NCBI RefSeq assembly: GCF_004802635.2
Contig: NZ_CP046052.1
Location: 1,674,001 to 1,738,000 of the forward strand
Direction: 5' to 3'
From: Methylocystis heyeri
GTDB lineage: Bacteria > Pseudomonadota > Alphaproteobacteria > Rhizobiales > Beijerinckiaceae
DNA: 64,000 nucleotides
The position numbers and the translations under genes were made by a program. The notes below the pieces were generated by a model. That model saw only the letters and a program-made list of their open reading frames with translations, was not told the origin of the DNA and made no database searches. Numbering within the stretch: the first letter of the stretch is position 1; the number at the start of each line of letters is the position of its first letter. This document shows positions 3,174 through 61,963 of the stretch, in pieces.

Positions 3174-5183
3174 TCAGGCGAACTCCATGATCACGGCGTC
3201 GACGGCGAGGCTGTCGCCCGCCTTGGCGACGATTTTCTTGACGGTCACGTCGCGCTCGGCGCGCAGCACGTTCTCCATCTTCATCGCCTCGACCATGCAC
3301 AGCGCCTCGCCGGCCTTGACCTCCTGACCCTCGGCCACGTCGATGGTCTTGACGAGGCCCGGCATCGGGCAAAGCAGATGCTTGGAGACGCCGGCGTCCT
3401 TCTTCTTCGGCATGAAGGTGGCGAGTTCCGCTTCGCGAACCGTATAGACCCGCGCAGCGACGCTGACGCCCTGATGGGAAAGTTCATAGCCGTTGAGGAT
3501 CGCACGCGCCTGAACGAACACCGTGTGGCCGTCGACCGTGCCTTCGAACACCGGTTCGCCGGGCCGCCAGTCGGAGGACACGCGATGAGCGCGGTTGTCC
3601 CCTTGCGCGAATCGCACGATCAAAGCTTCGCCCTGGGATTCGATCGAAACGTCGAAACGCTGGTCGGCCAGCATGCATACGCGGTCGCGGGCGAAGCGAA
3701 CCGGCGCGCCATTGCGCAGCTGCCCGGAAATATTGCGCTTACGCTCGTTGCCGATGTGGTCCATCAGCGTCGCCACGGCGGCGAGGACATGCGCCAGTTC
3801 GCCCTGGGGCTCCGGCGCGACGAAGCCGCCCGCATATTCCTCGGCGATGAAGCCGGTCGAGAGTTTTCCCGACCGCCAGCGATCATGCATCATGAGCGAG
3901 GACAGGAAGGGAATATTGTGGCGGATGCCGTCGATCACGAAACGGTCGAGCGCGTCGGCCTGCGCCTGGATGGCGGCGAGACGATCCGGCCCATGGGTGA
4001 CCAGTTTGGCGATCATCGGATCGTAGTGAATAGAAATTTCGCGCCCTTCGGTGACGCCCGTGTCGTTGCGCACGGTGATTCCGTCGGCGCGCTTTTCCTC
4101 CGGCGGGCGGTATTTCACCAGACGGCCGATGGAGGGCAGGAAATTGCGCGTCGGATCTTCGGCGTAGATGCGGCTTTCCACCGCCCAGCCCTTGATCTTG
4201 ACCTCCTCCTGCCTGATCTGGAGCGGCTCGCCCGCGGCGACGCGGATCATCTGCTCGACGAGATCGATGCCGGTGATGAGTTCGGTCACCGGATGCTCGA
4301 CCTGCAAGCGGGTGTTCATCTCGAGGAAGTAGAAACTCTTGTCCTGCCCGGCGACGAACTCGACCGTTCCGGCCGAGTTGTAGTCCACGGCTTTCGCGAG
4401 CGCCACGGCCTGCGCGCCCATCGCAGCGCGGGTCTCTTCGTCGAGCAGCGGCGAAGGCGCTTCCTCGATGACCTTCTGGTTGCGGCGCTGGATCGAACAT
4501 TCACGCTCGTTGAGGTGAATGACATTGCCGAAGCTGTCGCCCAGCACCTGGATTTCGATGTGGCGCGGATTGACGATGAATTTTTCGATGAAGACGCGGT
4601 CGTCGCCGAAGGAGGACGCGGCTTCGGAGCGGGCGCGGTTGAAGCCTTCGACGACTTCGTCGGCCTTGTAGGCGACTCGCATGCCCTTGCCGCCGCCGCC
4701 GGCGGAGGCCTTCAGCATGACCGGATAGCCGATCTCATTGGCGATCTTGACCGCTTCCTCGCCGTCCTGAATCACGCCGAGATAGCCCGGCACGACATTG
4801 ACCTTGGCCTTGGAGGCGAATTTCTTCGATTCGATCTTGTCGCCCATCGCCTCGATGGCCCTGGGATTGGGGCCGATGAAGACGATATTGGCGTCCGCGA
4901 GCGCCTTGGCGAAAGCCGCGCGCTCCGAAAGGAAGCCGTAACCCGGATGCACCGCCTCGGCGCCCGTGATCTTGCAGGCCTCGATGATCTTGTCGATCAG
5001 CAGATAGGATTGGGCGGCGGGCGGCGGGCCGATATGAATCGCCTCGTCCGCCATTTCCACATGCAGCGCGTCGGCGTCCGCGTCCGAATAAACGGCTACC
5101 GTGGCGATGCCCATGCGACGGGCGGTCTTGATAATGCGGCAAGCGATCTCGCCGCGGTTGGCGATCAGTATTTTGCGAAACAT
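3174..5183 (-). CDS. pccA: Acetyl/propionyl-CoA carboxylase alpha subunit (biotin carboxylase + BCCP)
   Basis: 669 residues, normal for the family. It carries ATP-dependent carboxylation of biotin, for transfer to an acyl-CoA (usually propionyl-CoA, giving methylmalonyl-CoA). The N-terminal biotin carboxylase domain starts 'FRKILIANRGEIACRI'; the glycine-rich ATP loop 'ASAGGGGKGMR' lies near residue 165, and 'EMNTRLQVEHPVTE' near 300 is the catalytic region. The C-terminal ~70 residues are a biotinyl domain with the lysine in 'EAMKMENV'. The beta subunit is not adjacent. The gene lies 77 bp after clpP on the same strand and ends at a strong terminator. Propionyl specificity is the usual assignment for this architecture in alphaproteobacteria but is not proven here. 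Confidence 0.92.
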   Translation of the reverse strand: MFRKILIANRGEIACRIIKTARRMGIATVAVYSDADADALHVEMADEAIHIGPPPAAQSYLLIDKIIEACKITGAEAVHPGYGFLSERAAFAKALADANIVFIGPNPRAIEAMGDKIESKKFASKAKVNVVPGYLGVIQDGEEAVKIANEIGYPVMLKASAGGGGKGMRVAYKADEVVEGFNRARSEAASSFGDDRVFIEKFIVNPRHIEIQVLGDSFGNVIHLNERECSIQRRNQKVIEEAPSPLLDEETRAAMGAQAVALAKAVDYNSAGTVEFVAGQDKSFYFLEMNTRLQVEHPVTELITGIDLVEQMIRVAAGEPLQIRQEEVKIKGWAVESRIYAEDPTRNFLPSIGRLVKYRPPEEKRADGITVRNDTGVTEGREISIHYDPMIAKLVTHGPDRLAAIQAQADALDRFVIDGIRHNIPFLSSLMMHDRWRSGKLSTGFIAEEYAGGFVAPEPQGELAHVLAAVATLMDHIGNERKRNISGQLRNGAPVRFARDRVCMLADQRFDVSIESQGEALIVRFAQGDNRAHRVSSDWRPGEPVFEGTVDGHTVFVQARAILNGYELSHQGVSVAARVYTVREAELATFMPKKKDAGVSKHLLCPMPGLVKTIDVAEGQEVKAGEALCMVEAMKMENVLRAERDVTVKKIVAKAGDSLAVDAVIMEFA

Positions 5184-5260
5184 GCGCGCCCCAGATTAAA
5201 GCGTTTGACGCGCCCGCCTCCGCTCCCCCGGAAACTGGCGGGCGCCGGTTGTTGTTGTTT

Positions 5261-58700: not shown

Positions 58701-59435
58701 CATAAGGTCTATCTGCGCACCGGCGAATATGGCGACGGACGCCTCGGCGAAATCTTCATCGACATGCACAAGGAGGGCGCCGCCTTCCGCAGCCTGATGA
58801 ACAATTTCGCCATCGCCATTTCTCTCGGCCTGCAATATGGCGTGCCGCTCGAAGAATATGTCGACGCCTTCACCTTCACCCGCTTCGAGCCCGCCGGCCC
58901 GGTGCAAGGCAACGACATGATCAAGAACGCGACCTCGATTCTCGATTATGTGTTCCGCGAGCTTGCGGTCTCTTATCTCGGCCGCAACGATCTCGCCCAT
59001 GTCTCGCCCGACGACATCGGCCATGACGTGCTCGGCAAGGGCGAGCATGAGGGCAAGGCGCCGGAAGCCGCCTCCGTCGTCTCGCGCGGGCTGCTGCGCA
59101 ACAAGGCCGACCGGCTGACGCTGGTGAACCGCGCCGATGCGACGCCGCCGATGGCCCATGCTTCCAGCGGCGCCCTGGCGCTGAAATCGGAGCTCGCCCG
59201 TGAGATCGAAGAATCCACTAACCCTTTTGATGATGATAACGATCCCACGACGGGAGGCTTAGCTTTCTCGAGGGACGTCGAGTGGAGCAAACCCTCGCTT
59301 AGTGCGAGGAGAGATCAGGCTCGTATGAAGGGTTACGTTGGCGAAGCCTGCCCGGAATGTGGTAACTTTACGCTGGTTCGTAATGGCACATGCCTGAAAT
59401 GCGATACATGCGGGGGAACGACCGGCTGCTCCTGA
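55722..59435 (+). CDS. nrdJ: B12-dependent (class II) ribonucleotide reductase, with exchanged C-terminal tail
   Basis: 1237 residues. It makes deoxyribonucleotides with adenosylcobalamin as radical source. The catalytic barrel shows '[16 protein letters not shown]', '[18 protein letters not shown]', '[20 protein letters not shown]' and '[20 protein letters not shown]'. The C-terminal zinc-ribbon tail with the redox-active Cys pair is '[20 protein letters not shown]' plus 'TCGG'. From about 59210 the codon use changes: the last ~75 codons ('[15 protein letters not shown]', '[12 protein letters not shown]') are AT-richer than the rest. A second, GC-rich copy of the last 36 codons lies at 60359-60469. 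The gene is therefore intact but its tail was replaced when a cargo module inserted. Two NrdR-like boxes lie upstream. Confidence 0.95.
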
Positions 59436-59451
59436 TGCGGAGGAGCCGGCA

Positions 59452-60126
59452 GTGTCACACCCCACCGACTATAAAGTCGCTCCCAAAAGCTTTGCGCGTC
59501 TCGCAGCAGACGCCGAGTCCTTGCGGAAATTACTCGGGGCTGACCATCGCCCCGAGTTCAAGGTGTGGCAAGCAATTGAGTTCTTAGAAAGAACGGAGTT
59601 ACCCAACAAAGGCGTTTTGACGGTTCACACATTTAATGCTCCGCTTGGCTACGCGCCCGCTAGAGTGAAATACAAACCTCTGCGTCTCTTCATTGATCGA
59701 GATGTGAAGGAAGCAGCGCTTCTTGGTTTCCCGTTCGAAAAATACGTTGTCGCCCATGAAATAGCCCACATAGTAGAGCACGATAACACTGCGAAAGCTT
59801 TTTCTTCCAGCGAAGCCGAACGCCTCAAGGCTTGGCCAAAAGAAGAGTTAGCTGAATGGCAGGCAGACACCTTCGCTGATAACCTACTAGTGCCATGGAA
59901 ATATTTGTTTTCTTTTCGTTTCGATATTAACGCCATCGCGTCCGCCTGCAACGTCGAGCGGAAAGTGGTGGAACGCCAGATCGCCGCATTGAAGGCTGAG
60001 AAGCGATATGTTTGTCAGGAGTGCCCGAAATGCGGCTGCTTTACGCTGGCGCGCAAAGGTAATGCGCTAAAATGTGAAACTTGCGGAAATGAGTTGGATA
60101 CCCCTAACGCTGGAGGAGTTCGATGA
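59452..60126 (+). CDS. ImmA/IrrE-like metallopeptidase with NrdJ-type zinc ribbon
   Basis: 224 residues. The zinc-peptidase motif is 'HEIAH' at 102-106, and the third ligand is probably Glu135 in 'EWQADTFADNLLVP', the typical ImmA/IrrE (COG2856) arrangement. There is no N-terminal HTH domain. The C-terminus carries four cysteines in the pattern CPKCG (191-195) and KCETCG (207-212) which, with the residues between them, matches the NrdJ tail ribbon in 15 of 22 positions. The gene is AT-richer than the core and starts 17 bp after the exchanged nrdJ stop. Its ATG/TGA overlap with the next gene (60123-60126) shows coupling. ImmA-like enzymes usually cleave repressors or antitoxins; the target here is unknown. 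Confidence 0.85.
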   Translation: MSHPTDYKVAPKSFARLAADAESLRKLLGADHRPEFKVWQAIEFLERTELPNKGVLTVHTFNAPLGYAPARVKYKPLRLFIDRDVKEAALLGFPFEKYVVAHEIAHIVEHDNTAKAFSSSEAERLKAWPKEELAEWQADTFADNLLVPWKYLFSFRFDINAIASACNVERKVVERQIAALKAEKRYVCQECPKCGCFTLARKGNALKCETCGNELDTPNAGGVR

Positions 60127-60326
60127 AGCAGCCAGGACTTGATGATCGCCATAGAGACAAAGACGGTCAAATCCATCGCAAAAGAAGTGATACTCTTGTC
60201 GGTACGCTAAGGAAGATTTACGGTGAAGGGTTTGCAAAAGACTTTAGGTCTGATGCTCAACTCAAAACGGTCCTTAAAAAAGAGCAGGTATCGTCTCTCG
60301 ACGAATTGCTGAAGAACAAACCTTAG
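60123..60326 (+). CDS. Small basic protein of the nrdJ-inserted module
   Basis: 67 residues, overlapping the peptidase stop by 4 bp. 'DKDGQIHRKRSDTLVGTLRK' and 'IYGEGFAKDFRSDAQLKTVL' match a small protein family I recall from Rhizobiales as hypothetical proteins ('NTLVxTLRxxYGxxFA'). It is helical and basic and has no known domain. Coupling with the peptidase suggests it is a partner, substrate or antitoxin-like protein, as in many ImmA-type pairs. Confidence 0.7.
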   Translation: MKQPGLDDRHRDKDGQIHRKRSDTLVGTLRKIYGEGFAKDFRSDAQLKTVLKKEQVSSLDELLKNKP

Positions 60327-60331
60327 ATTAG

Positions 60332-60469
60332 GCGCGAGCTGATCAAGCCGAAGAGCGGATGAAGGGCTATGTCGGCGAAGCCTGCCCCGAATGCGCGAAT
60401 TTTACCCTGGTGCGCAACGGGACGTGCCTGAAGTGCGAGACCTGCGGCAGCACGACGGGGTGTAATTGA
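60332..60469 (+). pseudogene. Orphan native nrdJ 3' end
   Basis: The frame from 60332 reads '[20 protein letters not shown]' and then '[19 protein letters not shown]' to a TGA at 60467. It is the GC-rich original NrdJ tail: 31 or more of 36 residues equal those of the tail now attached to nrdJ (59325-59435). The length of both tails from the shared Met is exactly 37 codons including stop. It has no ribosome site of its own and is out of contact with the rest of nrdJ. Confidence 0.92.
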
Positions 60470-60600: not shown

Positions 60601-61857
60601 TCATCTAAATACCTTAAGTCCTAGCGCCTTGTAGATCCGAGTTGATTGTGCAAACAACATCAAGACATCAGCTCTCCCGAGGGGTCGACGATGCGATACA
60701 GCGTTTCTAATCTGACACAACTGCCGAAGCGCTAAACAGAAAAACTCCTTATTTCCAAAAATAGCTCCGAACGCGTCACTCCAGTTGTTTTTTTGTGCAA
60801 TAATGCTCTCCAAATGCGAGAAGTCAGCGTAATGTATTAGTCCATAAACGGACCGCCCGTCTTGGCGATCCTTCGCCTGAAGAGCTTGCCATTCGTCCCG
60901 GAGCTTAGGTGGAACACGCCTCTTGACCCAAGCATCACCATCCAGCGCAGATAGTTTTGCTTCGATAGCATACCGTAAAGATAGCTCTAAGTTAGTAAGC
61001 ACCTCGTTGTGTCGGGGATCCAATACAGCACCCGGATCGCCATCTTCTATTGCGACAGGCAGAGGAGCGACAGCGAATTCAAATTGAAATCCGGCCGCGC
61101 ATATTACATCGCCGTATTCCTCGCGGGGAAAAGCAATCAGCCCTGGATGCAATCCGGCTTCGACGGCCGCAGCATCGCGGGCTTCCGCATCCGCGCTTTC
61201 GTCCGCTTCGATCCCAAAACCGAGTTCCTCTCGGAATAATTCAGCGACCGGTTCATCAAAAGGCTGACTATAATGCGCGGCATCGCTAATGCGGGCCAAG
61301 CGGGCGAATCCAGTGACCGAAATCCCCAGCGCCCCCTCCAGTGCCCAAGGTCGGTTGAAAGCTCCCAATTTTCCGGCAATCCTACTCTCCCATAAACTTC
61401 TCCCCGTTTCGGCTGAAAAGGGCGCAATTGCAAGGGAGGCTGCGCGGGAGTATTTCGATAACGCCTCTACTTCTGGACAAATATAGGTTCCAAATTGCTT
61501 GGCCGACGTCGATAGCCGCTCCATTTCCTTCAGATGAGCAGACGCAAGATTTGATATGTTCGCGAACCTCTCTACTTCTGGGATAACAGGGGCTTGGAAT
61601 TGCTTAGCAAATGCCGATAAGCGATCCATTTCTTTAAGATGTGCAGACGCAATATCCGCCATCTTCGTCAGCCCCTCTAATTCTGGCATAACAGGGGGGC
61701 TGAATTGCTTCACCAGCGCCGATAAGCGTTCTATTTCATTGAGATGGGTAGAGTTCATAGAACCTAGCAGTGGATTGATCGCTGACTTGTTAATCAGTCG
61801 GAGCGAGTCACTGCCGTCTAAAGGTGAGCCGATTTTTGGGATAACGTCGTCGGACAT
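60601..61857 (-). CDS. Swt1-like HEPN protein with three 35-residue repeats
   Basis: About 418 residues from the ATG at 61857 (two more codons to 61863). Three consecutive helical repeats of exactly 35 residues start at His40, His75 and His110 (each 'HLxExxRLSAxxKQF' ... 'PExE'), a pattern that fits a coiled-coil rod. The middle is not recognised. The C-terminal ~130 residues resemble the HEPN_Swt1 domain and end with 'CQIRNAVSHRRPLGRADV', which contains the HEPN RNase motif R-x4-H (Arg386, His391). HEPN proteins of this kind are commonly RNases in defence or toxin systems. It converges on the nrdJ module. No obvious antitoxin is adjacent. Confidence 0.72.
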   Translation of the reverse strand: MSDDVIPKIGSPLDGSDSLRLINKSAINPLLGSMNSTHLNEIERLSALVKQFSPPVMPELEGLTKMADIASAHLKEMDRLSAFAKQFQAPVIPEVERFANISNLASAHLKEMERLSTSAKQFGTYICPEVEALSKYSRAASLAIAPFSAETGRSLWESRIAGKLGAFNRPWALEGALGISVTGFARLARISDAAHYSQPFDEPVAELFREELGFGIEADESADAEARDAAAVEAGLHPGLIAFPREEYGDVICAAGFQFEFAVAPLPVAIEDGDPGAVLDPRHNEVLTNLELSLRYAIEAKLSALDGDAWVKRRVPPKLRDEWQALQAKDRQDGRSVYGLIHYADFSHLESIIAQKNNWSDAFGAIFGNKEFFCLALRQLCQIRNAVSHRRPLGRADVLMLFAQSTRIYKALGLKVFR

Positions 61858-61963
61858 CTGCACCGCGCTGGTCGGAATGGCGAAGCCAGATAACCATGGC
61901 TGCGCACGATGGCAACAAAGTACCTCTCGGTGAAATGTTGCTTCTCTTCACACCTTCGCCTCC

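Follow-up and report, generated by a model that had tools for sequence, protein, structure and literature searches.

Why does the nrdJ gene of Methylocystis heyeri, which encodes a class II ribonucleotide reductase, end twice, once at its own stop codon and once more downstream, with genes for a metalloprotease and a small protein in between? The features concerned (Table 1) lie in the window, by which we mean the whole stretch of 64,000 nucleotides that was analysed. A sequence-only reading of the window had proposed that a mobile module uses nrdJ as its target and carries a replacement for the tail that it displaces, so that the enzyme stays functional. The answer we favour, with reasonable though not full confidence, is a compact mobile cassette lacking a recombinase, composed of an nrdJ end and an M78 protease, that takes over the C-terminus of NrdJ.

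Table 1. Features around the 3' end of nrdJ, in coordinates of the window
Feature	Position	Strand	Basis or remark
nrdJ, class II (B12-dependent) ribonucleotide reductase, 1237 aa	55722..59435	+	native to ~59198
Foreign, probably cassette-borne nrdJ 3' end (linker, zinc-ribbon tail and stop)	59199..59435	+	GC3 change point, linker similarity
Working tail copy, 37 codons with stop	59325..59435	+	repeat; identity to congeneric tails
GGAGGAG, Shine-Dalgarno-like, just past the nrdJ stop	59439..59445	+	sequence
M78 (ImmA/IrrE-like) metalloprotease, 224 aa, GTG start, HEIAH	59452..60126	+	motifs, profile matches
C-terminal zinc ribbon of the protease, NrdJ-tail-like	~60001..60093	+	similarity to NrdJ tail
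Small protein, 67 aa	60123..60326	+	ORF; overlaps protease by 4 bp
Displaced native nrdJ tail (relic)	60347..60469	+	identity to congeneric nrdJ tails

The two ends of nrdJ

The product of nrdJ scores 2286.7 bits against the PRK07562 equivalog model and matches the families PF02867, PF08471 and TSCPD. A search of the whole genome found one nrdJ copy, plus the displaced tail and the zinc ribbon of the protease, so that a second full nrdJ downstream, to which the extra tail might have belonged, is rejected. The same genome gave no NrdB or NrdD match, and since no other reductase class was found, nrdJ may fairly be called essential.

GC3 along nrdJ falls from 0.83 to 0.55, with the switch placed 78 codons before the stop (change-point fit, 2dlnL 17.8), close to the last ~75 codons that the sequence-only reading had described as AT-richer than the rest. 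The native tail that it saw orphaned downstream is confirmed as well: 59322-59428 and 60356-60462 form a direct repeat of 107 nt (79% identical, spacing 1034), and it is the displaced copy that is closest to congeners. Measured on the last 96 coding bases, mean identity to 31 congeneric nrdJ tails, which share 84.2% among themselves, is 84.5% for the displaced tail and 74.8% for the working one (the 31 include L031, L060 and L251, where an M78 gene stands behind nrdJ and the tail looks native). The displaced tail also matches nrdJ of another genome (G022, locus L167) at 95.7% identity along 116 bp. The six tails nearest to the working tail include no congener, and an AT-rich end shared by the relatives, which the earlier reading had considered, is thus not what the comparison gives. 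Because the displaced copy is closer to congeneric tails and GC3 switches within nrdJ, the working 3' end in the window is, on sequence grounds, of outside origin and the displaced copy native.

The top five of 143 linker matches for the window (L053, L054, L242, L056 and L061) are all protease loci, four of them in genera other than that of the window and one (L053) in the same genus; by nrdJ body, L053, L054, L242 and L056 rank 41, 8, 87 and 46 of 143 against the window. The four best linker matches of L061 are non-protease loci, native loci are found among the linker matches of L053 and L056, and the mean linker score is 40.9 among ten cassette loci versus 30.0 between cassette loci and natives. 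A local partial duplication of the nrdJ 3' end, with one copy diverging and unrelated genes between, would account for two tail copies at 79% identity; the working linker and tail, however, are of foreign type and have their nearest matches at protease loci, mostly in other genera, while the displaced copy is native. We reject this explanation on the tail identities and linker matches, and give it next to no weight.

The tail had also been called recoded; it is better described as foreign and AT-richer, its protein sequence being ordinary. The residues are likewise ordinary in the working tails at the ten cassette loci compared, apart from one rare residue in L241. The last residue (N) of the displaced tail in the window is absent from 144 working tails, and residues unseen in these 144 are present in the displaced tails of three out of four cases. 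As the displaced tails carry such residues and the working tails are ordinary, the working tail looks constrained and the relic tail does not. The displaced copy in the window begins only ~12 bp ahead of the tail, and that of L054 not much earlier; since both start barely upstream of the tail, the native linkers of these two loci are gone.

Recurrence, junctions and coupling to the protease

We looked for the protease in 298 family genomes; other family loci were picked via nrdJ matches, independently of the protease. It lies directly behind nrdJ at 12 of the 13 loci fetched for it (nrdJ was not found at L062, one of the loci so fetched). A nearly complete displaced tail is present at 4 of 136 nrdJ loci: the window and L054, L055 and L059, which, unlike the window, came from loci fetched for the protease. 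Displaced tails thus recur in three further genera of the family, and the form is compact in all four loci. Identity to congeneric tails is 83.5% for the displaced versus 73.3% for the working tail in L054 (means, n = 8), 81.0% versus 73.9% in L059 (means, n = 21) and 83.3% versus 75.0% in L055 (n = 1), where the displaced tail is closest to genus g1 and not to the sole congener.

At two more loci, L061 and L053, an apparent displaced tail is fused in frame to the protease. In L061, GC3 is 76 in the protease tail, 39 in the working tail and 86 in the nrdJ body, and the protease tail is 89% and the working tail 75% identical to nrdJ of L113 (from another genus, no congener being in the comparison); in our reading, the native tail of L061 was displaced and then captured as part of the protease. 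A similar and apparently older capture may have taken place in L053; support is weaker there, as the fused tail is no closer to congeners than the working tail (73.8% and 72.4%).

Two same-genus pairs with and without the insert show where the foreign DNA begins and ends. L059 and L090 are alike up to GATALKAE, where L059 turns foreign; past the protease its native linker takes up again at ~GQAESLVTALPFAK, and no more than ~12 bp is missing. In the second pair, L055 and L100, the shared sequence extends through GATALKG.L.E, and nothing is missing where the native end takes up again, with 3-4 bp overlapping. Judging from these alignments, L059 and L055 are insertions, not replacements. Change points lie 63-78 codons before the stop in the window, L054, L055, L056, L058, L059, L061, L065 and L242, and further out in L053 (159 codons), L057 (97), L240 (109) and L241 (128); in L060, L063 and L064 no change point is substantial, and a weak one (92 codons, 2dlnL 10.4) occurs even in L090, the control with an uninterrupted nrdJ. 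Because the junction of L056 seems to lie further along the linker, the integration site would be a tolerant linker region and not one fixed core; a single fixed site is weakened by this locus and by junctions that vary by codons. Entry by homologous recombination at the tail, which the sequence-only reading had suggested, is disfavoured, as the junction lies in the variable linker ~78 codons before the stop and not at the tail repeat.

The foreign end goes together with the protease. With the 95th percentile of other loci as threshold, the last 75 codons show a larger GC3 deficit at 12 of 16 zinc-ribbon protease loci and at 5 of the 116 others (p 2.8e-10 by Fisher test and 1.3e-6 by Mann-Whitney; the loci are related and the p-values only a guide), and at ten of the 16 it is above the largest of the 116. 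The test excludes broken or fused ends, duplicates and loci with too little sequence or too little of the nrdJ body, as well as 11 loci whose M78 gene is of another type (10 with deltas of -7 to 11, and L244 with 13). A clear drop is absent at four of the 16 (L053, L060, L063 and L064), and the deficits of L057 and L240 fall inside the range of other loci. The tails of L060 and L063 look native; therefore the protease can sit there without tail exchange. With its layout found in other genera, the same-genus pairs and this link between foreign end and protease, the exchange model of the earlier reading has gained support.

Other cargo at the site behaves differently: the GC3 deficit is alike at 34 loci with other low-GC cargo versus 74 without (p 0.27), that is, other low-GC genes leave the nrdJ tail native. 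Low-GC DNA occupies the first kilobase after nrdJ at 49 of 125 loci (39 of 113 without the protease-fetched loci). We scanned 50 of the 85 low-GC ORFs within ~2.6 kb of the nrdJ end (protease homologues and ORFs judged spurious were omitted), and the matches listed include SIR2, STAND-type ATPases, a Pycsar cyclase and effector, OLD, TIR and HipA-like proteins. By analogy, the nrdJ 3' end resembles core defence hotspots. Turnover at such a hotspot, in which homologous recombination swapped the nrdJ 3' end along with the following genes of a donor and the foreign tail is a recombination tract, would fit this frequent low-GC DNA with varied defence-type genes, the recombinase not found nearby, and the occurrence of nrdJ on plasmids too. 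A replacement, however, would not leave a native linker and tail downstream, as seen in L055 and L059, and tail exchange is missing from the 34 loci with other low-GC cargo. We therefore consider turnover unlikely, though it is the strongest competitor of a mobile cassette.

Several other observations concern the site. Similar HNH-like genes stand 7-12 bp behind nrdJ in two genera (L071 in G012, and L117), and SIR2 genes are found at L070 and L166. In the window, a low-GC HEPN_Swt1 gene (60601-61863, minus strand; PF18731, 27.6 bits; PADLOC PDC-M34B) contains three 105-nt repeats at 61454-61768 and has relatives on plasmids. L069 (G020) has an nrdJ tail with an internal deletion and a frame change, followed by a low-GC gene. 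Plasmid-borne nrdJ copies (L260 on pRX1, L261 and L262) occur in Methylocapsa, Methylobacterium and Bosea; of the three compared as possible donors of the cassette tail, none is clearly close to the cassette linkers.

That no integrase is visible, as noted earlier, holds: the tail copies enclose nothing but the protease and the 67-aa gene, and the nearest match to PF00589, the tyrosine family being the one searched, is ~81 kb away in the genome. A remnant of a larger integrase-bearing element, with nrdJ as attachment site and the integrase lost, is suggested by the geometry shared with e14 in icd (in-frame insertion, supplied C-terminus, displaced segment). We think it improbable, more so than hotspot turnover, given the distance of that match, the compact form at the four loci with displaced tails and the missing long shared core (the junctions share 3-4 bp in L055 and nothing clear in L059). 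Among phage records the protease has one weak match (30% identity, in an unannotated record), and among plasmid records none.

M78 matches adjoin nrdJ in at least 5 of 121 cases in 80 family genomes, window included. Across 397 genomes of the order there were 30 matches to the protease model; 14 of these loci (window included) have an nrdJ tail or body, and some of the 14 carry other M78 types without the ribbon. Outside the order, there are three matches at E 1e-12 in 385 genomes of the class, besides the window's own and G046. Three single loci may be added. At L245 (G668), in another family of the order, an M78 gene of another type stands between nrdJ and a displaced tail. At L183 (G453) an M78 match at a contig start is followed downstream by a stretch resembling the tail (89% over 28 aa); nrdJ may lie across the contig end, and this is possibly a further displaced tail. 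At L029 (G026), the reading frame of nrdJ continues into an M78 protease that seems to have no N-terminal part, which is either a natural fusion or an assembly error.

The protease, its zinc ribbon and the proposed mechanism

The M78 family is recognized by HExxH plus a downstream acidic ligand. In 15 aligned protease sequences (window included) HExxH, a further H and E-x-QA are invariant, among them H102, E103, H106 and E135, and so are three cysteines of the C-terminal zinc ribbon. The protease in the window scores 20.8 bits against PF06114 (M78) for a cut-off of 22 (21.4, or 22 with neighbouring stretches), and matches the PADLOC capP model (E 1.1e-9); its predicted structure is poor (mean pLDDT 42.4). 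Its neighbours are nrdJ, the gene for the 67-aa protein and the HEPN gene. The two genes between the tails had been described as coupled, for an ImmA/IrrE-like metallopeptidase and a small protein, and the ORFs and their overlap bear this out. A homologue of the 67-aa protein, 73% identical, is at the same position in L054, and profile searches gave no family match for it. Relatives of the 67-aa protein also occur directly behind nrdJ with no protease between (L268 in G138 and L272 in G116), and near TIR genes on two of three plasmids inspected.

The ribbon of the protease is 58% identical to the NrdJ tail (E 1.2e-6) and matches positions 1171-1217 of PRK07562 (E 3.2e-5); the tail motif thus occurs a third time, in diverged form, at the C-terminus of the protease, which the earlier reading did not mention. 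Of the M78 ORFs that could be scored, 7 of 12 beside nrdJ have a zinc ribbon and none of the 22 at other places (p 1.5e-4; 26 of the 60 loci gave no score), a comparison biased by half of its loci having been drawn with a model of the M78 part of the ribbon proteases.

Tail fragments were found on four viral contigs, three of which hold nrdJ body sequence. The fourth, L174 (5.4 kb), holds no nrdJ body that we could find, and the open frame at 4751-5212, beside a terminase gene, encodes a dATP/dGTP pyrophosphohydrolase (PF04447, 5.8e-14) ending in an NrdJ-tail-like zinc ribbon that is 64% identical to the tail in the window; L174 is accordingly rejected as a phage nrdJ end. The pyrophosphohydrolase has relatives in 102 phage records. 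Because this phage enzyme, too, ends in such a ribbon, the NrdJ-like ribbon may be a portable docking module of dNTP metabolism, as its occurrence suggests.

We propose that the cassette would consist of an nrdJ linker, zinc-ribbon tail and stop, followed by an M78 protease with an NrdJ-like zinc ribbon and sometimes by a small gene. It would enter the variable linker of nrdJ in frame, in the mapped cases mostly shortly after the GATALK motif. The resident nrdJ would be cut, the cassette would supply the working C-terminus so that the reductase keeps functioning, and the native end would be pushed behind the cassette. There it may decay (window, L054 and L059), stay nearly intact (L055) or become fused to the protease (L061 and probably L053).

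The protease begins with GTG at the 17th base past the nrdJ stop, and since GGAGGAG sits between stop and start, we infer that the protease is translated through the nrdJ message. We likewise infer that the cassette would be retained as if holding a hostage, because it contains the C-terminus of the only reductase found and a deletion would remove it. The protease itself is probably an accessory protein of defence or stress, read as defence-type because the same spot carries many defence-type genes. A more specific and tentative idea, which we rate as rather unlikely, is that protease and NrdJ tail form a matched pair: the ribbon would be a captured tail serving as integrated decoy or docking domain, and the protease would sense phage interference with the reductase or police NrdJ. 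The tail motif on at least two other proteins (the protease and the dNTP hydrolase) fits a docking role and raises the odds of a matched pair slightly. If the protease polices NrdJ, the cassette tail would be the resistant version, and the whole a natural cleave-and-rescue element held in place by the only reductase.

Comparison with known systems

A cassette of ~1 kb that repeatedly takes over the C-terminus of a ribonucleotide reductase, and would be expressed through nrdJ, suggests how a defence-type gene could become fixed by joining an essential gene. The natural series of intact, decayed and captured displaced tails may be useful for reconstructing the process, and in Hyphomicrobiales the nrdJ 3' end may be worth searching for new defence genes. 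A literature search, with most subscription journals outside its coverage, found no earlier report of a protease cassette at an nrdJ end.

The protease has the HExxH M78 core of CapP and other M78 regulatory proteases. In CBASS CapH-CapP systems an adjacent XRE repressor and a cyclase are expected; the protease in the window has neither adjacent, and carries the C-terminal NrdJ-like zinc ribbon. The phage pyrophosphohydrolase of L174 shares an NrdJ-tail-like ribbon with the protease, but is a nucleotide hydrolase on a viral contig. Synthetic cleave-and-rescue elements are cassettes that combine a version of an essential gene with an effector. The nrdJ cassette makes the same pairing, but an attack of its protease on native NrdJ is hypothetical. 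The zinc ribbon discussed in PMC4009431 is that of NrdR.

The core defence hotspots (cDHS) of Pseudomonas aeruginosa are described, in the part of the source consulted, as conserved genes flanking variable defence genes with no obvious single mobilising mechanism (PMC10250203). Here, too, a core gene, nrdJ, flanks variable defence-type cargo, but a single class of cargo supplants the end of that gene. The closest parallel in geometry is e14 in icd of E. coli, a prophage with a putative integrase, where, according to the sections on e14 in PMC11148124, the C-terminus is kept upstream and a 165-bp segment (icdC) lies beyond the element. Both are in-frame insertions in the 3' part of the target with a replaced C-terminus and a displaced native 3' segment. 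The nrdJ cassette differs in its size (~1 kb), in the recombinase not being found, in a junction that varies within the linker, and in a cargo protein that bears the target's own tail domain. The exchange of gene ends is thus known from integrase-bearing elements such as e14, and nrdJ presents a variant of it with which no mobility enzyme was found.
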